DNA from: Loxodes magnus
Lineage: Eukaryota; Ciliophora; Karyorelictea; Loxodida; Loxodidae
Direction of reading: 5' to 3'
Assembly: GCA_946699065.1 (NCBI GenBank)
Contig: CAMPDV010000896.1
Span: forward strand, 108,282-172,281
Length of the DNA stretch: 64,000 nucleotides
Below the pieces are notes generated by a model. The model was not told the origin of the DNA and searched no databases. It worked only from the letters and a program-made list of their open reading frames with translations. Within the stretch, counting starts at the first letter, position 1, and every line of letters starts with the position of its first letter. Made by a program: the position numbers and the translations under genes. This document shows, piece after piece, positions 1 to 61,820 of this stretch.

Positions 1-2
1 GA

Positions 3-1037
3 AAAGATGGGGAAAACTGCTTAATCAGACTATCTTTGTTTGATCAAAGTTTAACTTAAAATGCTATCATAACATTAACAGTCTTAGAAGAGAGAAGTTT
101 CGCTAATGGGATAGAATTTAATGTTACTTCTACTTCTTCAATTCCAAATTAATATAGTACTGTCTTGATGAAAATATCCGCACCTCAAGGGAGAATATTT
201 AGAGGCCCAACTTCAACTTCTATGACCATAATAGGAATTCCTTCAGTATTCAAGTCTGACTATGGAAGTATTAGAGAGTAAACAGGTTTTCATTTAATGA
301 GTAAAGAATAAATAGAACTAGGCTCTACTTTCACTACGTAACAAATCCAAATAACTTAAGGAATTAGAACTTAATTAAAAATAGAACTACTAGAAAGTGG
401 ATTAAAAACGGTCCGAACCCTAAAATTTACTTTTTCAGCATTCGTTTAGGCTCTTATTGGATCAATAGTTGGAATAATGATAACATTGGGAGGTTTCATG
501 TAAGTGGTAGAAATAATTTATTGACATTACTCTAATAAAATATAGAAGAAGCGAGCTATAAAAAAATAATTCGAAAAATACTAAAATAAAATCATAAAGC
601 TGAAGAAAAAAGAACCTGAGAATGAAGAAACTATCATAGTATCTAAAAAAGAATCTAATAAATAAAATCTATTTTCAGAGTCTGAAATTTCTTCTTAAAC
701 TCCTTTGAAAGCACAAATTGCCTATTAGAATAATTCATAACAAAAGGAAGTAAATGATCAAGATCCAGATGATTATTAAGAAAATTAAGTTAATTAATAA
801 GAGATGACGTAAGCATTTCCTTCAGTTAAAATTACTTTAAAACAAAAAGAAAATTTTAAAATTATAGATTAGAATAATTAAGAATCGAGAGCAGTTAAAA
901 TTCAAAGTCCTTATGAAATAGAAGAAGTAAAAGATTCAATGCCAATGAATTCCTACAACAACTTAAAAAGATACAAAACAGGAGATAATTCAGATCCTTT
1001 AATATTCGTGAATACGGCAAAAGATTATGAAAAGTGA
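3..1037 (+). CDS. C-terminal part of a kelch/Cys-rich membrane protein (5' cut by the window edge)
   Basis: Read with TAA/TAG as Gln, one frame runs from base 3 to TGA at 1035-1037 and gives about 344 residues. It is a close paralogue of the C-terminus of the minus-strand gene at 47401-51213, covering its last extracellular part, its last membrane helix (around ALIGSIVGIMITLGG, bases 450-495) and a Gln/Asn/Ser-rich cytoplasmic tail. An in-frame TGA at 522-524 just after the helix sits at the same place as a TGA in the paralogue, so it is read as Trp. Both proteins end in DYEK then TGA. Inference: a surface or endomembrane receptor-like protein whose kelch and Cys-rich domains lie outside the window. 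Function unknown. Confidence 0.85.
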
Positions 1038-1133
1038 CTTAAGATTTTTAATTTTTTAAATATCTATATCTCAAATTAAAAAATTTCATCTACTAATAGT
1101 TGAGTCATTAAAAAATATAATTATTTATCTATA

Positions 1134-1159
1134 ATTTATTTATTTATTTATTTATTTAT
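1134..1159. repeat. (TTTA)n microsatellite
   Basis: About six perfect TTTA units lie 100 bp downstream of the receptor-like gene end. Similar TTTA/TTAT runs follow many of the SINE-like elements in this window, so it may mark the tail of an old insertion, but no element body is visible next to it. Confidence 0.7.
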
Positions 1160-1229
1160 AAAACACGAACAAATAAAAAATAAAAATTATTTGGTATATT
1201 AATTCTGAGCAATAAATTTCTCAAACATT

Positions 1230-3050
1230 CTTATAAAAAGAGAAAATGAAGATTTTACCTTTTATAAAATGCTTTTCGATGTTTATAGTTTTAAGTATAT
1301 TAATTCTCTAATTTAACTAGAGAAATTTATTTGAAATTATCTAGTTAATTTCTATGGATCATTAATAAATACATTTCTTAATTTAAGCATAATGCAAATG
1401 AATATTTGCTTATTTTTTATTTATATGAGATTTTATTTCTTTCTAAGTAAAACTTATATAGATTTAAGCTTTTATTAGATTGTTATTACTGAAAGAATAA
1501 GGATTGAAGACATAATATTTATTATTGTATAGATATAACATGTTTTATCTATCATTAATCCTTATAATTAATGATATATACTTATATAAATTTAAAATTG
1601 AAGAAATCATAAAATAATTTTCAACTTTTAGTCTAGTTTCTTATAAAATTATTCAGCTACATTTAATTTATTATTAATATACTTCTTCTATCAATTTTAA
1701 ATATAGCATTTTAAGTCTGCTTTAATTAGCTAAAATACTTAAATTAAGGTCTTAATTTAAGAAAATATAACCAAATTCGTGCTTAAATCTATTTTTTTAT
1801 ACTTCTTTTTCATCAGTCTAGTTTTTAAAAGATTATGTTTGATTTATCAAATTGCTTTATTTTTCAATCTTTAGAGTCTTTTAAGATTTTTATTAAAGGA
1901 TTTTGCGAGAAAATTAAAATGTATTTATTTAATTTGAATTTAAACTTTTTTAAATCTGAGTTTTAAGCAAGTCCTTAATCCTTGATAGTAGTTTTATTAT
2001 TAGACCTAATTAAAATTTAAGCTTCTAATTTATTGATTTTCTCTAGTTTTTATTTGTTCTCTTTAAAAAATAAATATCAAATTTAATGTTTTTCCTTTTT
2101 ACAAAATGCTTACTTTCTATATTTTCACGTTTTTCTTAAATAAATTGTAAATTAAATTTCTAAAACTTCTTTATCTAGCAAGCATAAAGAATTAACACTT
2201 TATTTAGGATATATAATTACTTAAAATAATTTTAAAATAAATTCTTAGTACTTATATTTTATTTAAATTTTACAAATAAACTACAATAGTTATCATTTAA
2301 CATTTAAGCTTCATCTGATTTATTTTAAATATGATTGCCAACTATATAGTCAGATATAGCTTGCTGTTATACGTAGTTTTATTCTTAATTTGATCAAATT
2401 AGGATTCTTTTAAGTTATTTATTTGTATTGTTTATTTATTATTTTCATAGTCAATTTTTATTAATGAGCATTCTTTTAAAGTTAAGAATTAGTTGCTTAA
2501 GGAAAATTTATCGAGATATATGAAACTTTTTGAATTAAAATATTGATATTCTGCTTTTTTAGTACCAAGATACATTTTAATAAATTTAGAATCTTAATCT
2601 TTTTCTTCTTTTTGTTCGAGTTTTATCTATTTGAATTCACTTAATTTCTAAATATACTAAACTCTCATGCAAATATAATCTCATATCTTTTCCTGTTCTT
2701 CTAAAGTATTTAAGATTACATCTAAAAGTTTATATTAAACCTGTTACTTGTTTTAATAAAGTTTTGAAACAAATTATTTTTTTTAGTATTGTCTTATTAT
2801 TTTAGATTTTCTATCGATTCGTCATTCACTTTTTTTTCATCAGCTTCGATGATTTTTGCTAAATTGTTCAAATTAAAATAAGCTTAAAATTATATAAAAA
2901 TGAACGAACATTATACTATAAATTTAGAAGTCAGACCAAACTTTATTTTTTATAATCCTATACTCTGTATCATCTGATTTAGCACAACTTTTTTTAATTT
3001 TTGATGCTAAGTAATTAATGATTCAAGCACTAAAAATTTAATTTATGAAT
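1230..3050 (-). other. Long AT-rich stretch, coding-like on the minus strand
   Basis: The plus strand is T-rich here, so the minus strand is A- and purine-rich as in the recognised genes, and minus-strand frames read through hundreds of codons rich in Lys, Asn, Gln, Leu and Ile with few TGA. More than one frame is open and I recognise no domain, so I cannot choose a frame, start or stop. It may be a large divergent gene, a dead gene or AT-rich spacer. Confidence 0.25.
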
Positions 3051-4806: not shown

Positions 4807-5362
4807 TTATCAATTATTTAATTTAAAGTTATATTTAAAGTAAATCACTTCTATAGAAAATATAATTTTTGATTTTATATTTAAAGTATGAAATAAAAGA
4901 TAAATAGTTTAGCAAAGAAAATTCTATCTGCCTGCTAATAATAATAAATTTTTATAAATTTAATTAACAAATTTACATTATTATAAAATTGATTCTATTT
5001 TTATAATCTGAAAATTTATATCATAAGTTTGGATAATTTTAGTTAGTATAACTCACATTAATTATTAGATTCTTAAGATTATTATCTTTTATTTTTCCTT
5101 AATTTTTATTTTTTATTATTTTGCATATTAATAATTAATATAAGTATTATTAACTTTATACAAATTTAGTATAATTTAAAATTTGAAAAATATTAAAAAT
5201 AATATTTATTTAACTAAGCTCTTTGAAATATCCCTAGCTTATATCTATTTTTTATTAACATTTATAAGTAAAAAATTAAAAAAATTTTTATGAAAAAAAT
5301 TAAAAATTCAGCCAAAAACTTTTTCGTTTTAAAAGAAACTATTATATCTTAAATTAAAATAA
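4807..5362. other. AT-rich spacer downstream of the minus-strand kelch gene
   Basis: No recognised feature. The frame of the adjacent kelch gene continues into it for at least 40 codons without TGA but loses all similarity to the paralogues, so it is taken as non-coding. Confidence 0.45.
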
Positions 5363-6310
5363 TTAAAACTACTAAATTTTTCGCCAATATTTTTTTCTCA
5401 GATCTAAAATACAAAGTTCACTTTCATAATTAAATTAGAATATAATGCTCCTTTACTAAATAGGCTAAGTATAATCGTATCCTCCAGTTTTATATTTATC
5501 ACCATATATTATTATTCGTTTAAAATCAAATATTTGTGTATCTATATCAGAAGTATTTGCAAATATAATGTATGAATTTTTTTCTGGAATATAAATTGCT
5601 GAAGTTAAAGCATTTTTTATTATTTCCTATTCACTTAAAAACCATTCATTTTTCTTAATACTATAAATTTAAATTTTATTTTAAGCTTATTCTTCTCTAA
5701 AAAAATATCCACCAAACACATAAACATTTCTGTTATTTTAATCACATCCAAATGTACTAACTGGAATTTTTATAGATTAAGTATCTCTGAAATTTTTATC
5801 GCTTAAGTTAAAAAATTCACATTCAAAAACATCTTTTTATTCTTAATTTTGAGAAAAACTTCCAGAAATAATAAAAATTAAATTTCTGTTGTTGTAGCTT
5901 GTTCTATGTCAAAATCTCGAATATTACATTTCGTATTTTTATATCTAACTATTTTCAAAATGAAATGTATAACGTTTCTAATTTTAAGTATATCCTCCAG
6001 TCAAAAGTATTACACCGTTTTATAATTATTCTATCTATGTATAAAAAAATTCTGTATTTTCGATATCAACTTTATAATCTTAAAATTATTATTCCACTAT
6101 TTCGAAAATTTTTTTATTATTTGAGTTAAACTAAATTGTAGAAACAACTTTAAAATTTTTTCTCGGAATTAAATTAGGACAGACTTCGTACTAAACTATT
6201 CCAATACCAAATGATGCAAATAATCTACTTCCATTCTTACTATTGTAGCTTCTAATAATTTTTCTCAATGCTAAGATTTATACAATTTTATTTTCTATTT
6301 TATTTAGCAT
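5363..6310 (-). CDS. Kelch-motif protein, four-member family (no TGA stop found)
   Basis: ATG at 6310-6308 opens a frame that matches the kelch proteins at 14922, 25623 and 40342 throughout: basic N-terminus (LRKII), FGIG, then YEVCPNL, a first blade, FIISG, FECEFF, and FGCDQNNRNVYVFGG in a typical kelch blade. One in-frame TGA falls where a paralogue also has TGA (RFWH, Trp). Residue 312 is reached at 5375, the same length as the relatives. There is no TGA there: the frame meets TAG TAG TTT TAA (5374-5363) and then at least 40 TGA-free codons without similarity. Either TAG/TAA stops here or the stop has been lost. Kelch blades form propellers that bind partner proteins; the partner is unknown. 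Confidence 0.8.
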
Positions 6311-6399
6311 TATAAAACTACTCATTCTTAAGATGTAAATTCTTAACTTAAATTTTTAATTTTTAAATGTTTCTTAATTTACTTATTATAAAAATAGAT

Positions 6400-6960
6400 T
6401 ACTTAAAGAAGAGTTTTTCATCACTTTCTCAGAAAGTGAGAGAAAACTTGGAGTATCTCTCTTTAGATCACGTCTAAATTTAAAATAGCAGAAAAAATAT
6501 TAACCGAGCAATTCTTCCAAGACAGAAAGGGAAAATTTAACATCCTTCAATTACTTAAACTGAAATATCTACAAAAAACATAAAAAAGGAGAAGGGATCG
6601 CAGTAAGAAAATGTACCACGAATGATAATTTGAGTAATCTGACAAAAGAATAAATAAATGGAATGGAATAGAATCAAACCCCAAAAAATGATTTTTCGAC
6701 TAATTAGAACTATGTTGAACTGAAAAAAGAGCTGATAAAACTCCAACTTGACATTTACTTTCACGCTATGAATGCAAATTTAAATATACACTACTTTAAT
6801 TTATAGATTAGTTTGAAACCAAGATGGAAGAGTTAGAGCAGCAATGTGTAAAAGTTTAAATAAAAAAATATACTAAAACCAAGAAATAAGAATGATAAGA
6901 AAAAAGAAACAGTTTTGCTCAAAAGGTATTATAACAACACTGGAGAACAATTAAATAATC
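6400..6960 (+). other. Coding-like plus-strand segment, unrecognised
   Basis: From about 6400 a purine-rich plus-strand frame runs for roughly 180 codons with balanced, polar composition (many Asn, Lys, Ser, Thr) and two or fewer TGA, for instance around LTKEQINGMEQNQTPKND and KRYYNNTGEQL. No start is obvious and it runs into the microsatellite at 6965. It may be a fragment of a mobile-element ORF, since a gag relic follows on the other strand, or a host gene. No domain recognised. Confidence 0.35.
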
Positions 6961-14921: not shown

Positions 14922-15857
14922 ATGAAAGAATATAACTAAATAGTCAAAATTCTCTTTCTTAGAAAGCTTATAAGAAATTCTAAAAATTGGAATAAATTAA
15001 GAATTTTCGCTCTTTTTGGAATTGGAATGACAAAATATGAGATATGCCCTAATTTAAAAAATTTTAGATAGTTCAAAAAAATTTATACGATATTTATGGA
15101 TTCAAAAAAGTTAAAAACTTATTATATTGAAGAAAAAGTAGATAGTGAGCAAATAATTAATATTAATCCAACTGAATATTCAAAAACATAAATAGAATAG
15201 ATATCAGAAGAATGTTTCCTTTTGTCGGGAGGAGAAAACAGTATCTAAATTAGATTTGATATTTATTGCAATAAAACATAAGTTGAAAACTTGCAAATGT
15301 AATATTAAAGATATTGACATAAAACAACCTTTAATAGATAAAAATAGATTTTTATAATTTCAGGCCTTTAAAATATTAATGAGTAACTTTCAGATGTGGT
15401 AAATTGTGAAGTTTTTATGAAAAACACTAAGTAATTTAAAAATATAAAATAAATACTAATACCAACTTATTTATTTGGATGTGACTAAACACATCAAAAT
15501 ATTTATGTGTTTGGAGGATTTTCAGAAACTAAAAAAAGTTATTTGGATACAATATAAAATTACAATAAATAGAGAAATGAATGAAATATATTTGACTTAA
15601 ATATATATAGAAAAGCAACAACTTAGTCAATTTTCTATCCATAAGAAAGATCATTTTTTATTTATGGAAATTGACATTTTTTAGAAACATTTATATTTGA
15701 TGAAAAAAAAATGTAAATACATGGAGAGAAATATACTAATAGTTCTTACGATTTTACAAAGCCTGTCTTAAGTAGAAACTTAATTTTTTAATTTAGTGGA
15801 GAATGTAGATTATAAGCATACTCGTTGCAAAAATCTTAGTGGAGTAAAATAAGTTGA
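14922..15857 (+). CDS. Kelch-motif protein, four-member family
   Basis: An uninterrupted 311-residue frame from ATG 14922 to TGA 15855. The N-terminus has a basic helix (LFLRKLIRNS) and FGIGMTKYEICPNL, the family signature. The central part has FLLSGGE and FIISGL, and the clearest blade is FGCDQTHQNIYVFGGFSE, ending ERNEW-like with Trp coded by TGA at 15582. RYWH and YGNW are further TGA-Trp sites. Length and order match the paralogues at 5363, 25623 and 40342. Probably a beta-propeller or half-propeller adaptor; partner unknown. It lies 440 bp upstream of tRNA-Leu, but no link between them is apparent. Confidence 0.9.
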
Positions 15858-16293: not shown

Positions 16294-16373
16294 GACAGTG
16301 TGGCCGAGTGGTCTAAGGCGCTAGCTTAAGGCGCTAGTCTTTCGGGGCGTGGGTTCAAATCCCACCGCTGTCA
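16294..16373 (+). tRNA. tRNA-Leu (AAG)
   Basis: An 80-nt type II tRNA: acceptor GACAGTG/CGCTGTC, D-arm TGGCCGAGTGGTCTAAGG, anticodon stem CTAGC/GCTAG with loop TTAAGGC (anticodon AAG), a variable arm around TCTTTCGGGG, and T-arm GTGGGTTCAAATCCCAC. Nearly identical in body to the minus-strand tRNA-Leu(TAG) at 62704-62783. The T-run after it (16374-16380) can serve as Pol III terminator. Confidence 0.95.
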
Positions 16374-25622: not shown

Positions 25623-26579
25623 ATGCAAAACTATGCTAATTTAAAAATTTTGATGTTATGATTAAGAAAAATTATTAGAAAATCTAGAAATTATAGTGGA
25701 TGTAAATTAATAGCAAAGTGTGGAATTGGAGTTATAAAGTACGAAATTTGTTCTAATTTGAGTCAAAAATTAAATAAAAATATATTAACGATTATCTTTA
25801 ATTCTACAGTCTTGGAATTATATTCCTTGGAAAATAAATAATTTTTATAGCTAAACTTGAACATTCAGAAAACTGACCAAAATTATACGCAAACAGAATA
25901 ATATTTGGATGATAGTGTAATAATATCAGGTGGACTAAATAACTGTCAGAAAAGATTTACTATTTATAGATAAGAAATTACAAAAGACTATTAAATGGAA
26001 TTTTAAAGATCTTTTCATCGAACAAAATTTGATTAAAGGAAGATTATTTATATAATATCAGGTTTAACTGAAATCAATTATGATTTATTAGATGTCGAAA
26101 ATTGCGAGGCTTTTCACATATAATCAAATACATTCAGTAGATTAAATAAAATATCAATTCCTGTTTATTCTTTTGGTTGCGATTAAAATGATTAAGGAGT
26201 ATATGTTTTTGGTGGATGCAGTGAGACTTAAAATAAATTCTAAAATAAAATTTAGTTTTATGACAGTAAGATAAATTCTTGAAATCTACTTCCTTAAACT
26301 TTATCAAAAAAAGCATTTTGCTCAGCAATTTTTGTTCCTTATACAAAGATTTTTTTAATATATGCAAATAGTTCTGATTTAGAAACTTAAATTTTTGATT
26401 TTAAGAGTATAGCAATTCAGGGAGAAAGATATATATAATATACTATAAGTGACTTTACTTAACCAATTTTAAATAGAAGTTATGTCTATTAATTTCGTTT
26501 TGACAATAAACTTATGAGTTATGACTTAAACATTGGATAATGGAAAGCGGTTTATTAAAACAGTGGAATTTTATATTGA
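25623..26579 (+). CDS. Kelch-motif protein, four-member family
   Basis: An uninterrupted 318-residue frame from ATG 25623 to TGA 26577. Family signature GIGVIKYEICSNL near residue 35, IISGGLNN, IIISGL, DVENCEAF, then the best blade FGCDQNDQGVYVFGG followed by KINSWNLLP, whose Trp is TGA at 26280-26282. A second half-blade FDFKS and a C-terminal strand NIGQWKAV precede the stop. The relatives at 14922, 5363 and 40342 end at the same place after a W-containing strand. Probably an adaptor or propeller protein. Start chosen because the paralogues begin at the same distance from the FGIG motif. Confidence 0.9.
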
Positions 26580-30974: not shown

Positions 30975-32744
30975 ATGTAGAGCTTTATTTGCAAGAATTG
31001 CGATAAAGAATATGATTAATAGAAACGTATTCCTAGGATTCTTAAATGTGGGTGTGTTCGGTGCTAGAGATGTATCACTTTAATTTTTCGAAACGAAAAT
31101 TAGTTTAAATGCAAGTAGCATGAATAAATTACAAAAGATAAGCCTGAAGATCTACCAATATAAAGTGATTATTCTTCTTAAGATTAACAAAACAAACAAG
31201 CTAACAAATGTAAAGCACATAATGAAAAATACTAATTTTGATGCTCAAAAGATAATGTCTTTGTTTGTAAGAACTGTATAACGTAAAATCATAAAGGACA
31301 TAAATTTGAAGAGCTTAAAAATGGAATAATTTAAAAATGAAATTAAATTTAGAATGAGATAAATTATTTAGAATAACAATCTTCAACTGAACAAACAAAT
31401 TAACGTAAAATAGTAGAAAATACTAAAAAGTATAAAAAACAAATGTTGGAAATTCAAAAAAATGTTTTCTTTCATTTTGAAAATTTTTCGAGATATGTAT
31501 TTGATTAAGAAGTAAAACCTATTCATAAATAACTTAAACAAACATAACAAAAAGCAACGAAATCAGATGAAGATATACAATAAATAAAAAATAAGCTTTA
31601 ATAAATACAAGAAAAGCCTTTTAATTCAGAAGAGGAATATGAATAAATAAAAAATTAAATTTTTGAAATTAATCTGGCTTATAAGCAGATCTAAATGAAC
31701 GTATAGTAAAATGTAGATTTAAATATTGATTCAAACGAAACTATAAATAAACTTAAAAGCATAATTTTAAAGAATATTCTGGAAACAGAAGAAGCTAGTT
31801 AAATTATAGGATAATAAAAAGCAAATAAATAGAATTAAGCTTAATAATAGCTTCAAATTTTATTATAAGATACTAAATGCTTAATTGATATTATATCACA
31901 AAGAAAACATCAAAGATCAGAAACTTTGACAAAATATAAAATAATTTATTGAGATAGTTCAAATTTTCTAACAAGCAATTTATAGGGATAAGAATAGTAT
32001 AAAATCTAAAGACAGCAAGTTAAAGACTTGAAGTCTATCTTCAAAAATTATACAACATCTTTGTAAATAAGCGATAGTTAAATTATATTAGCTGGAGGTG
32101 AATCAGACTAAACATATTCAAACTCTTTGATACAGATAGAAGATTAGAAAATTTAATAATAGATAAACTTAATATATGCGAAAGACAGCCCTTCATTAGT
32201 GTATAATAACAATTAAAAAGTTTTTATAGTTGCTGGAGTAGATCCTTAAATAAAAAACAGTACAAAATCTTGCGAATTATATAACTTATAAAAAAGCAAA
32301 TAAGCTCCTATTTCATAACATCTATATGAAATCAGTTTCAATGGAATTTGTTTCGCTTATGATTTTATATTTACTTTTGGAGGATTATAGTATAATGGAG
32401 AAATTAATAAAGTTTGCTTTTATGATATTTAAACAAATAAGTGAATTGAGCATGATAAAAAAATTCCAAGAGGTGCATTTAGCATTTCAGCAGTATTTGC
32501 CTAGGACGTGAAATTTACTCTTTTATTTGATAATTTCGAATTTTTAGAAAAAACATATGCTTATGATTTTAAGCAATTCTAAGAACATGGAGCAGAGTTT
32601 CCTAAACCTATGAACTGAAATAGAATTTGATTCAATGCAATTTATGAAAATAAGCGAGTTTACATGTATAATTCGGATTAAAATTATTAAGATTAACTAT
32701 ACATGTACGAAATAGTTGAAGCTAAAGAATGGAAAAAAGTTTGA
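30975..32744 (+). CDS. RING-like/B-box and kelch protein (TRIM-like)
   Basis: One uninterrupted frame, 589 residues, ATG 30975 to TGA 32742. Residues 1-45: Cys-rich RING-like start (ICKNCDKEYD, KCGCVRCQRC). Residues about 76-115: B-box, C-KAH-NEKYQFW-C then VFVCKNC, ITQNHKGH, with zinc ligands in B-box2 spacing; its Trp is TGA at 31239-31241. Then a long Gln/Lys-rich coiled coil (to about 370) and kelch-like blades (IILAGGES, VFIVAGVDP, FIFTFGGL, TNKW) to the C-terminus. B-box proteins with this order act as scaffolds or ubiquitin ligases; whether the first zinc domain is a functional RING is uncertain. Six Trp are TGA. Isolated gene between two element-rich stretches. Confidence 0.9.
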
Positions 32745-47400: not shown

Positions 47401-50400
47401 TCACTTTTCATAATCGTTTTTTGAATTCACAAATATCAAGGAATCTGAATTTTCTTATGTTTTAGTCTTGTTTTAATTTTTGTTAGAACGCAGCGACGCT
47501 AGATCCTTCAGTTCTTCTATTTCGTAAGGACTTTAAACTTTAATTACTCTCGATTCCTAATTATTCTTGTCTCTGACTTTATAAGCTTCTTTTTATTACA
47601 ACGTAATTTGGATAGAGGGAAATTCTTAAGTTATTTCTTACTAATTTATTTAATTTTTTTATTAATCATTTGGCTCTTGGTCTTCTACTTCCTTTTGTTA
47701 TGAATTATTCTAATAGGCAATTTTTGCTTTAAAGGGAGTTTATGAAGAAATTTCAGACTCTAAAATGAAATTTTATTTGATGGAAAATTTTTTGGATATT
47801 AGATTAATTGCTTCATTTTCAGGGTTTTTTTTCTTCGAAGTTCTCAATTTTTTTTAGAATTTGAATAGCTTCCTTTTTATAAGTCGCTTCTTCTATATTT
47901 AATTAGACCAATGTCAAAAAAATCTTTCCACAACTTACATGAGGCCTCCTATTGTTATCATTATTCCAACTATTGATCCAATAAGAGCTTAAATGAACGC
48001 TGAAAAAGTAAACTTAAGAGTTGAAACCGTTTTTAATCCACTTTCTAGTATTTCTATTTTTAATTAAGTTCTAATTCCTTCAGTTATTTGGATTTGCTAC
48101 GTAGTGAAAGTAGAACCTAGTTCTATTTATTCTTTACTCATTAGATGAAAACCTGTTTACTCTCTAATACTTCCTCAGTCAGACTTGAATACTGAAGGAA
48201 TTCCTATTATGGTCATAGAAGTTGGAGTTGGGCCTCTAAATATTCTCCCTTGAGGTGCGGATATTTTCATCAAGACAGTACTATATTAATTTGGAATTGA
48301 AGAAGTAGAAGTAACATTAAATTCTATCCCACTAGCGAAGCTTCTCTCTTCTAAGACTGTTAATGTTACGATAGCATTTTACGTTAAGCTGCAATCAAGC
48401 AAAGATAATCTGATTAAGCAGTTTTCCTCATCTTTTCTACATTAAATTACTCGAGCGTTTTGATTGATTTATCCTTGAATTCCAAATTGCTCTAAATTAA
48501 CTTCTAACGATTCCACACAATATGTTCACTCTTTATTCTAATTACTAAACTCTGTCTAGGTAATGCATTTTCCTCCGTATTAGAGGTAAGTAAGAGTGAA
48601 ATAAAAATCTGCTTTGATTACCTTATAGCTCTCTAACAGAATAAGTACTGGAATCAAGGCCTTAGTTTCATTGATGTTGTCCTATAAGTAATAAATAAAG
48701 TTTATGCATATCACCAGCGAAGCAGCAAACAAAAATAAAACAGTGAAGAAGCCACCTATTCTTGTTGCTTTTTATCTAAGGATTTCTTATTTATAGTTAT
48801 GCTTATTGCTGAATAAATCTATTTTATAGATTTTATCATACAAGCTTTAGGAGCAGCAAATAAATATGAAGGCTATAAATAATAAGCTACCTGTTGCAAC
48901 CTAAATAAGTTTCAGTTTTTCATTAATTTCTTCGTTGTCAATTTGATAGCTTTCTGGTTACTTAAAGTAGGTTTGATTAGTGGTTTAGTAGAGTTATGGT
49001 ATTATTGTACCTATTGAACATTTTTAAGATTAAGGACATTAGTAACACTCTGCAAGGCCAGGAGTTGGTCCATATGTTCCATTGTTACAAGGATTACAGA
49101 ACTTATGATCAGAAGCAGCTTCAAAGCCATTAAAATTCCCTGATTCACATGGAATACAATTACCCTCCTAAACTCAGTAAGTGCCTTTTACACAAGGCAA
49201 GCAATTTTAGTTTTAGATCAAGTAAGTACCTGCACTGCAATTTCAACCACATTCTTCTATTGGACATTCAAAATTATATATATAAAATTAATTCTAAGAT
49301 TTCTAAATTTGAGCTGATGATTTAGCAACTGCTACTCCACCGAACATTATTATTCTTCTTTAATAGTAGACCATACTTTACCCAAGCACAAATCCAGGTC
49401 AAGCTCTAGTACTTTTATTCTGCTACTAGAAAATAATTTCCCCTGTCTCTAAATTCATTTCGATGAAATTGTCTCTCAATAAATCTCAAAATGATCCACC
49501 GTATCAAACAATTTAGTTTTGCGATGCAGCAACTCCATATAAAGAAACGGAAAATTATAGATTTTGAGTCTCATTTATGAACTTTCACCTTTATGTTTCC
49601 AAGTTGTATTCATAAACTGCATCTGTTGGAACCTTCGATAATTTCTCACCTCCAATAACATAAAATTTATTATTTCATTAATGAGCATGGCAATAGTATA
49701 TTTCACCTGGGCCATATAAGTCATTTGAGGAAAGTAAGGTTCATTTATAAGAACCAAAATTAAAAGAATATAGTTCGCTGGAAACTCCGTTCTAGCCCAT
49801 TCCCCCATAAATTAGAAATTGATTCCCAATAATTACTCCACAACTTCCGTATTTACCTGCAGGATTTTATGAAAAATATTCTTATTTTTGCCAAACTGAG
49901 GTAAATGAATCATATAAATACATATCATTGTAGATGAAATTATTATATCCAACTCCTCCTCATATCACTAGATATTTACCGTGTGTTGCTGCTACATGCT
50001 TACTTCTCTATTATGGATTTTCTCCTTAGAAATTGGGCATAGTTCATATATTAGTCTTAAAATAAAAAAATCATAATTCGTTATTTTTTATTGCGTTATG
50101 TTCTCCACCAAAGATAATCATAATGTTGGAAATTATATTTGCTGAATGAAAGGCTCTTGGCTCAGGTGTTTGCATAACTGGATATAATTATTCCCATCTT
50201 AGTATATTTTGAGTTATATTTAATCTAATTATGTCGTTTTTGCAACCAGACAAACTTCAGCCTGAGAATAAATAAAAGCAACCTTAATAAAAGGAAACAA
50301 TAGCATTATCTCTCTCACTCACATCATCATTTTCTATCTTTAATTTGTATCAGACTATTTCATCTAAGTTACTAAAGTCTATGTAGTAGCTCTAATTTAT

Positions 50401-51213
50401 ATTATGCTTAAATTAGAAATCTCACCCTTAGAATTAATATCATCGTTTTTATTCTCAATCAACTCATTCTCCATTCAGATATGTCCATTTAGGAAAAACT
50501 CCTTACACTGTTTTTCTCGTCCAAACACCAGAGGAAAGGTTTAGTAGATACATACTTTAATCATCGTAAATAGTTTCGTAATCTCCGTTTTTTAGAAGTA
50601 AAAACCCGTCCAAGTAAAGTAAATTTGGCTAACGCATTTTGAGAGGCTTTTCACCTGTTGTTATTATTTATTTAAATCTTCAGTTTGAGAAGCTTAATTC
50701 CCAAAGATCATTAGTATATTGCTCTTATCCCATTCCCCCAAAAATCAGCATTTTCCATGTCTAATCTTAATCATTTCAGTAAGTTATGCATCCCATCTTT
50801 TTAGCAGGAGGAGGTGAGCTTCCTGAAATAGTAACTTTAGTTCAATACTAAAAATCCAGACTGAAAATCCAGACATCATTTTAGTTTCCATTTTAAGTTT
50901 ATCCCCCATAAAGAATTAGTAAGTTCTCATCTTCAATTTTAGAGGTACAATGACTAGTCCTTGCTTCAGGTATCTCATTGTTAGTTAAAGTCATTCTAGT
51001 TCATTTTAAGTCATGAAAGGTATATATTCAGGTATCATCTAGCATTTAAGTGGTTCCCATTCCATGAGTTATTATTAAAAATTTATCAGAAAATTGCTGA
51101 CCACTACTTCAATAACGTGGAGGAGGTGGAGTTCCGCTAAAGGGAAATAATGATCACTCTGACTAAGAAACCTTTAATAAAAACTCAAATATAATTAATA
51201 GCTATAAAGGCAT
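47401..51213 (-). CDS. Large kelch-repeat, Cys-rich, multi-helix membrane protein (receptor-like)
   Basis: One uninterrupted frame of 1,270 residues, ATG 51213-51211 to TGA 47403-47401. Residues 1-18 are a signal peptide (MPLQLLIIFEFLLKVSQS). About 20-640 hold many kelch blades (LILYGG, DVWIFSLDF, MLIFGGMG, NDLWELSFSNW, IMIIFGGEH, FYVIGGE, IIMFGGVAVA). About 650-740 are Cys-rich repeats of the GCC2/GCC3-ephrin-receptor-like type (CGWNCSAGTY, CLPCVKGTYW, CNPCNNGTYG). Helices lie near 775-795, 820-845 and 1075-1095, then a Gln/Asn/Glu tail. Dozens of TAA/TAG (Gln) and many TGA (Trp, often at the kelch W) are in frame. Such proteins are common at ciliate surfaces; ligand unknown. The gene at 1-1037 is its paralogue. 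Confidence 0.93.
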
Positions 51214-60661: not shown

Positions 60662-61626
60662 ATGAGCTACTTTAATACAAAAATTATTTAAGTAAGTTAT
60701 AAAATTAAAAATGGAGAAAAAAGAAATACAATTTACTAAAAAAAGCTTGCTTTTACGAAAAATCTTAAGATAACGAAAAGATTTCTTGGAACAATACCAC
60801 TTCTTCTATTTAAATATGAAATATTACCAAATTTATGCTTCTAAAAACTTGTTAATAAGATCAATTACGATAAAAGCAAAGGTATTTCTTTAATATTTTT
60901 AGACTAATCCCTTACTGGGCACTTCTCATATGTTTACTCGGTAGTTATTTCCCCTGATTAGAAATAAATTGTATCAGCATCTTACGATAAAACGATAAAG
61001 ATCTGAGATTTTCATATTGGTTTTCTCTTAAAAAATTTGACTGGACATAATTCTTACGTTTACTAGGTAGTTATCTCTGCTGACTAGAAATAAATTGTAT
61101 CTAGCTCTGCAGACTCCTCAATAAATATCTGGAATTTCTAGACTGGTGCTCTCCTAAGAACTTTGATTAGACACTGCTCATCTATTTACTAGGTAATTAT
61201 GAGTCCTGATTAGAAATGAATAATTTCAGCATCTAACGATAAAACAATAAAGATCTGGGATTTCCTTTCTGGTCAGCTTGAACGAACTCTTTCTAGGCAC
61301 TCTAGCTCAGTTTTTTCAGTAATTGTGTCTTAGGATAATAGGTATATAATATCGGGTTCCTATGACAATTCAATTAAGATATGGGACTTCTCTACTGGTT
61401 GGCTAGTTTGTACTCTTCAAGGGTATATAGAATTATATAAAGTATTTAACTTAGTACTGATTCTAGCGTTATATTTTCTGGTTCTTATGATTAAACAATC
61501 AAGATAAGGAACTTTATAATGGGCGAATATATCCAGACTCTTTAAAAGAATAAATCATCAATAGAATCTATAGAATTAAGTAGTGACAATAGATGGTTAG
61601 TATCTGGAGATTAGGATAGTATGTGA
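60662..61626 (+). CDS. WD40-repeat protein with one frame break in the fifth repeat
   Basis: ATG 60662 (preceded by an in-frame TGA at 60635) gives an N-terminal domain of about 85 residues, then five to six WD40 repeats: LTGHFSYVYS, SPDQKQIVSASYDKTIKIW (Trp TGA), SSADSSINIW, SASNDKTIKIWDF, SGSYDNSIKIWDF. After TLQG (about 61420) the frame must shift by one base to continue as QSIQLSTDSSVIFSGSYDQT and SSDNRWLVSGDQDSM, ending at TGA 61624. Repeat length is kept if one base is missing; removing a 32-nt gtatat...acttag segment also restores the frame but shortens the repeat. WD40 propellers are protein scaffolds; partners unknown. Confidence 0.8.
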
Positions 61627-61820
61627 GAAAGTAGAGAATTGCAAGTTGCGAATTAGAGATAAACTAATTTAAGACTAATTTTATTTTACAATTTAGTAGT
61701 TAATAATAAAAACTAAACGAAGCTAAGTAATACATTTTAAATTGCTTAATATTTTAAAAAGATTAAAGTTCTCCATTTTTTTAATTAAAGGAAAATATCG
61801 ATTATGTTTACGTGTATTAT

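Follow-up and report, generated by a model that had tools for sequence, protein, structure and literature searches.

Whether the three canonical stop codons can all serve as sense codons, and which of them still ends a gene, is the question raised by a stretch of 64,000 nucleotides from Loxodes magnus (hereafter the window; C896:108282-172281). The window has a GC content of about 24% and contains five tRNAs, and its translation with NCBI table 11 yields a single open reading frame of at least 100 amino acids in the whole 64 kb. An earlier note on this DNA had proposed that TAA and TAG are very common in frame as Gln and that TGA stands for both Trp and stop, and had placed this code among those of karyorelict ciliates. 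The group was named correctly, and the proposal matches the published code of the species: in the available text of PMC11441545, L. magnus is assigned NCBI table 27, in which UGA means Trp or serves as the sole stop, and the accessible part of PMC4967479 gives table 27 as the nuclear code of the karyorelict Parduczia sp. as well. With this code, in which UAA and UAG are sense codons, the window genes agree, and no difference was found in the portions of these two papers that were available. The code is not new, being already in print for L. magnus, and the main claim adds nothing to published knowledge. The interest of the window lies in the confirmation, from genomic DNA alone and with no code assumed, that one codon has two meanings in the same gene. 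We are almost certain that the window represents macronuclear DNA with this known ambiguous nuclear code. The genome searched comprised 705,730,643 bp in 7,843 contigs.

In-frame stop codons in the genes of the window

Coding regions were delimited with a home-made six-frame coding model, which returned many weak segments; a segment was kept only if Pfam matches or paralogues supported it. The gene on which the question centres, located on the forward strand at 30975..32744, matched the Pfam B-box (6.3e-10) and kelch families and remained open over 590 codons when TAA and TAG were read as Gln and TGA as Trp, with 67 reassigned codons. Apart from its terminal TGA, it contains 45 TAA, 15 TAG, 15 CAA, 3 CAG, 6 TGA and 1 TGG codons.

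The earlier note had also placed TGA at sites where the protein families need Trp. This part of the proposal held for two kelch genes and a WD40 gene, and failed for the B-box. At the claimed B-box Trp (31239..31241, forward strand) a TGA is present, but the column that it faces is occupied by Phe in all five TRIM B-box matches printed; this site is the weakest of the examples put forward. The two kelch genes, at 14922..15857 and 25623..26579 on the forward strand, were confirmed by Pfam; their TGA codons at 15582 and 26280 are present and lie, as judged by eye, at blade Trp positions, and the putative stops of these genes are the TGA codons at 15855-15857 and 26577-26579, respectively. A kelch paralogue on the reverse strand (5237..6460, extent approximate) has TGG where the motif at 15582 has TGA, also by eye. 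The WD40 gene on the forward strand (60662..61700, extent approximate) was likewise confirmed (PF00400, 2.6e-41), and the Trp of its W[DN]F motif is encoded by TGA in one repeat (61004) and by TGG in three (61130, 61256 and 61382). The frame of the WD40 similarity changes near 61430, inside the gene, which points either to a frameshift or to a tiny intron.

The gene at 47401..51213 had been described as receptor-like kelch, with no strand given. Its identity was upheld by six stretches of PF24681 (1.7e-123), and hydrophobic segments were judged by eye; it lies on the reverse strand, where it carries 27 sense TGA and 8 TGG codons. A reading on the forward strand was rejected because the translation yields no sensible protein. 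The 3′ part of a second copy is found on the forward strand at 1..1250 (extent approximate), truncated by the start of the window. Both this gene and the B-box/kelch gene are duplicated across contigs C896, C1173, C1872, C4702, C6820 and C22: the receptor-like gene in copies with 93-100% identity, three of them on C896, and the B-box/kelch gene in four nearly identical ones, an additional one being on C896. These near-identical copies represent either segmental duplication or uncollapsed alleles.

Codon exchange among paralogues

The receptor-like gene was aligned as DNA, with no code assumed, to 12 genomic paralogues, two of them with about 91% identity and the other ten aligning in pieces at 67-73%; aligned pieces shorter than 150 nt were left out. 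The 308 cells opposite a TGA of the window gene, two of which belong to the terminal codon, contained 221 TGA, 59 TGG, 9 TAT and 19 other codons. TGG made up 59 of the 87 changed cells, as compared with a share of 1/9 expected if a single base changed at random (p ~1e-35 by a binomial test, a value that overstates the case and serves only as a guide, as related paralogues are treated as independent), and this exchange excludes chance. Opposite the TGG codons of the window gene, 85 cells contained 38 TGA and 34 TGG. The codons facing TAA (553 cells) included 228 TAA, 56 CAA, 48 TAG, 45 AAA and 27 GAA, and those facing TAG (193 cells) included 54 TAG, 58 TAA and 13 CAA. This is the exchange pattern expected if TGA encodes Trp and if TAA and TAG, which exchange with CAA/CAG, encode Gln.

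In Euplotes, TGA is read as Cys, which is the known alternative and provides a precedent for assigning TGA here to another residue, be it Cys, Arg or Gly. The exchange data speak against such an assignment, since TGT, TGC, CGA, AGA and GGA are absent from the listed partners of TGA, which account for 306 of the 308 cells (the rest being one GGT and one TCA), and TGT, with 161 cells, changes only to TGC (47), ACT (1) and TAT (1). We consider it extremely improbable that TGA encodes a residue other than Trp in these genes.

The same alignments bear on the idea that TGA is a stop only, its in-frame occurrences being signs of pseudogenes or of short introns. The presence of several window genes in multiple near-identical copies would fit pseudogenes, and the very short introns of L. 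magnus (mode 17 bp, lengths of 16 nt or more, in the available text of PMC11441545) would fit the other version of this idea. However, it is already contradicted by the conservation of TGA at the same columns in paralogues of about 70% identity and by its swaps with TGG; furthermore, introns of at least 16 nt, as given in that part of the paper, cannot excise one codon, and TGA occurs at conserved Trp positions of actin and CCT-eta. The probability that we would grant this explanation is close to nil.

Blinded alignment to solved structures

The reading of TGA as Trp was also examined in conserved proteins, whose sequences were aligned to solved structures after TAA, TAG and TGA had all been written as X. 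In the actin gene L052, TGA was found on W79 and W340, and two of the four sense TGAs of this gene were opposite non-Trp columns. The one TGA of the CCT-eta gene L020, at codon 436, was on Trp, the codon having been matched via its distance to the stop. In the B-box/kelch gene, the X at codon 490 (32442..32444, forward strand) was opposite a kelch-blade Trp in 7q58 and 9tsn, in a weak match with a whole-sequence E value of ~9e-5 and single domains that were not significant. Regarding TAA and TAG, several of these codons in the actin and CCT-eta alignments were opposite Gln and several were opposite other residues.

TGA as a stop codon

The position of gene ends was studied in actins, in the B-box/kelch family and in the receptor-like gene. 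The C-termini of 13 actin loci were printed, and two were left out, L032 because the wrong strand was shown and L061 because its match was partial. In all of the 11 loci readable at the C-terminus, the first in-frame TGA lay 0-1 codons past the domain match. In L052 and L053, sense TGAs and a terminal KCF-TGA, placed after the C-terminal Phe, occur in one gene.

A query of the B-box/kelch gene extended 62 codons beyond 32744 produced 68 genomic matches, of which five (the window itself and near-identical copies) matched over the full length. Among the other full-length paralogue matches, 10 of 11 ended at codon 590, where the TGA at 32742..32744 would act as the stop, and one ended at 633; the ten resemble near-copies of one another and do not count as ten independent witnesses. 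As for the 52 partial matches, 28 ended at 588-597 and 24 ran on to 599-650, the run-on probably reflecting extension of the local alignment into AT-rich sequence, so the end of similarity at codon 590 appears clean for the full-length set only. Three copies share the 3′ end of the receptor-like gene at about 79% identity, and their alignment breaks off 22 nt past the first base of this gene's terminal TGA (47401..47403, reverse strand); five copies with 99-100% identity continue past this codon. The proposal that these genes end at TGA where similarity to paralogues stops was sustained for the full-length B-box/kelch set and for the receptor-like gene against its ~79% copies. As judged from these ends, TGA very probably acts as a stop as well. 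Paralogue exchange, blinded alignments to solved structures and the C-termini of conserved proteins support Gln as the meaning of UAA and UAG, and Trp or stop as that of UGA, in the genes of the window.

A code of the Condylostoma type (NCBI table 28), in which TAA and TAG are able to terminate as well as TGA, has to be weighed at this point. According to the part of PMC4967479 that was available, Condylostoma magnum resembles the present case in having 64 sense codons and context-dependent termination, but differs in that all three codons also terminate there, whereas only TGA ends were seen here. Such a code would account for the use of all three codons as sense codons in the window, and occasional termination at TAA would also lead to the depletion of TAA before gene ends that is reported below. 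On the other hand, the ends placed by domains or paralogues are TGA (11/11 readable actins, B-box/kelch and receptor-like genes), no TAA or TAG being needed as a stop in this small sample, and the available text of PMC11441545 gives UGA as the sole stop of L. magnus. We regard the table 28 code as very unlikely here.

Codon use near gene ends

Within the table 27 reading, codon use before the stop was determined in a set of 33 genes (20 CCT, 8 actin, 1 eRF1 and 4 window genes), in which members of a family are not independent. The stop was defined in this set as the first TGA and, because of this definition, the set cannot test termination at TAA or TAG. Among Gln-type codons, TAA was depleted over the last 40 codons before the stop (23/77) as compared with its use farther upstream (439/838; p=1.9e-4), whereas TAG was not (25/77 vs 169/838; p=0.019, in the opposite direction). 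The same contrast before the stop, with UAA depleted and UAG not, is given for L. magnus transcripts in the available text of PMC11441545. The share of TGA among Trp codons was also lower near the stop (3/19 vs 45/111, p=0.043), a difference that is partly circular because the stop had been defined as the first TGA. In a group of about 40 actin copies that are nearly identical, L035 and L040 among them, TAG is preferred to TAA as the Gln codon and TGA does not occur in frame, in contrast to several divergent actins; this difference could stem from codon choice according to expression level.

Components of the decoding machinery

Two candidates were considered for eRF1, L010, which was aligned as eRF1, and L011, which was judged by eye. 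The L010 protein keeps the NIKS motif and, in the alignment, has TASNIKSRVNRLSV replaced by RAQNIKSRAVQKAV, with Ala at the position that we take to be human Ser70. A third locus, L009, gave the best eRF1_1 match and was set aside, since by eye it resembles pelota/Dom34.

At least 37 genes for tRNA-Trp(CCA) were found on contig C148 (L071 1-9991 and L072 1-600; G000:C148:155200-165790), where at least 36 units follow one another on one strand about 241 bp apart and the right end of the array was not reached. The 34 copies of L071, which are those compared base by base, are identical, 33 of them being in the 241-bp tandem array, and L072 adds three more at the same spacing. In this tRNA, T27 and C43 are unpaired, which leaves an anticodon stem of 4 bp (drawn for 4 copies, with the sequence common to 34/34). 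A tRNA-Trp with a 4-bp stem has already been reported in Loxodes by Swart et al., as cited in the available parts of PMC13092985 and PMC12005148. The tandem array is not described in the available text of the literature searched, which does not include the key paper on the Loxodes tRNA-Trp, and newness is not claimed for it. On contig C110, three genes resembling tRNA-Trp(CCA) (L062, identical to L063; L064; and L066) have the full 5-bp stem, so the open top pair of the anticodon stem is present in 34/34 copies of L071 and absent from these three genes.

Both traits have counterparts in Blastocrithidia, where, in the available parts of PMC12153298 and PMC13092985, tRNA-Trp(CCA) also has its top anticodon-stem pair open and eRF1 is also altered at human Ser70. 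The residue at that site is Gly in Blastocrithidia, in contrast with Ala here, and the two codes differ in the meaning of UAR (Glu there, Gln here) and in the stop codon (UAA there, UGA here).

For Gln, 15 tRNA-Gln-like loci were read, with anticodons CTG (12), CTA (2) and CGG (1). The two CTA loci have a Gln body, though ARAGORN labels them Pyl, and their anticodon is cognate to UAG. No tRNA-Gln(UUA) was present among these 15 loci, which came from probe-biased searches that scored 40 candidates each, out of 190 and 470, respectively, and a Tetrahymena-like tRNA-Gln query had no match. The locus with anticodon CGG (L080, G000:C531:101423-101512) has a Gln body and is called Pro by ARAGORN.

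The codon meanings and the sequences of tRNA-Trp, tRNA-Gln(CUA) and eRF1 are direct results of this analysis, and they suggest a model of decoding in which these molecules would be the working parts. Gln would be inserted at UAA and UAG by tRNA-Gln species whose anticodons are altered, among which a tRNA-Gln(UUA) is predicted to exist. UGA within genes would be read as Trp, most likely by the 4-bp-stem tRNA-Trp(CCA) taking UGA as a near-cognate codon, and an eRF1 weakened for UGA by the Ala at human Ser70 would favour this reading. Near the 3′ end of the mRNA, UGA would terminate, as eRF1 may there outcompete the tRNA. In the model published for L. magnus, termination is governed by closeness to the poly-A tail, and 3′ UTRs have a median of 41 bp (available text of PMC11441545). 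With the eRF1 Ser70 to Ala change, the array of open-stem tRNA-Trp and the tRNA-Gln(CUA), the competition model becomes testable in this genome.

A variant of this model, in which the amplified 4-bp-stem tRNA-Trp(CCA) and the eRF1 change would tip UGA to Trp by tRNA dosage, with the 5-bp genes reading UGG only, seems unlikely to us. It is weakened by the fact that neither copy number nor regular spacing is peculiar to tRNA-Trp. For the tRNA-Leu(AAG) of the window (16294-16373), no fewer than 40 exact copies were counted over 28 contigs, with 40 of 309 candidates scored, and tRNA-Gln copies on contig C112 (G000:C112:666912-688432) recur every 1,264 bp, 11 in a row and one apart; the one copy read (L073) has anticodon CTG.

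Finally, L062/L063, L064, L065, L066, L067 and L068, on contigs C110 and C7736, constitute a tRNA-like family with one body and anticodons CCA, CAT or CCT. L065 was not called by ARAGORN, and the T stem pairs poorly in several members, which are possibly mobile or decaying tRNA-derived copies.
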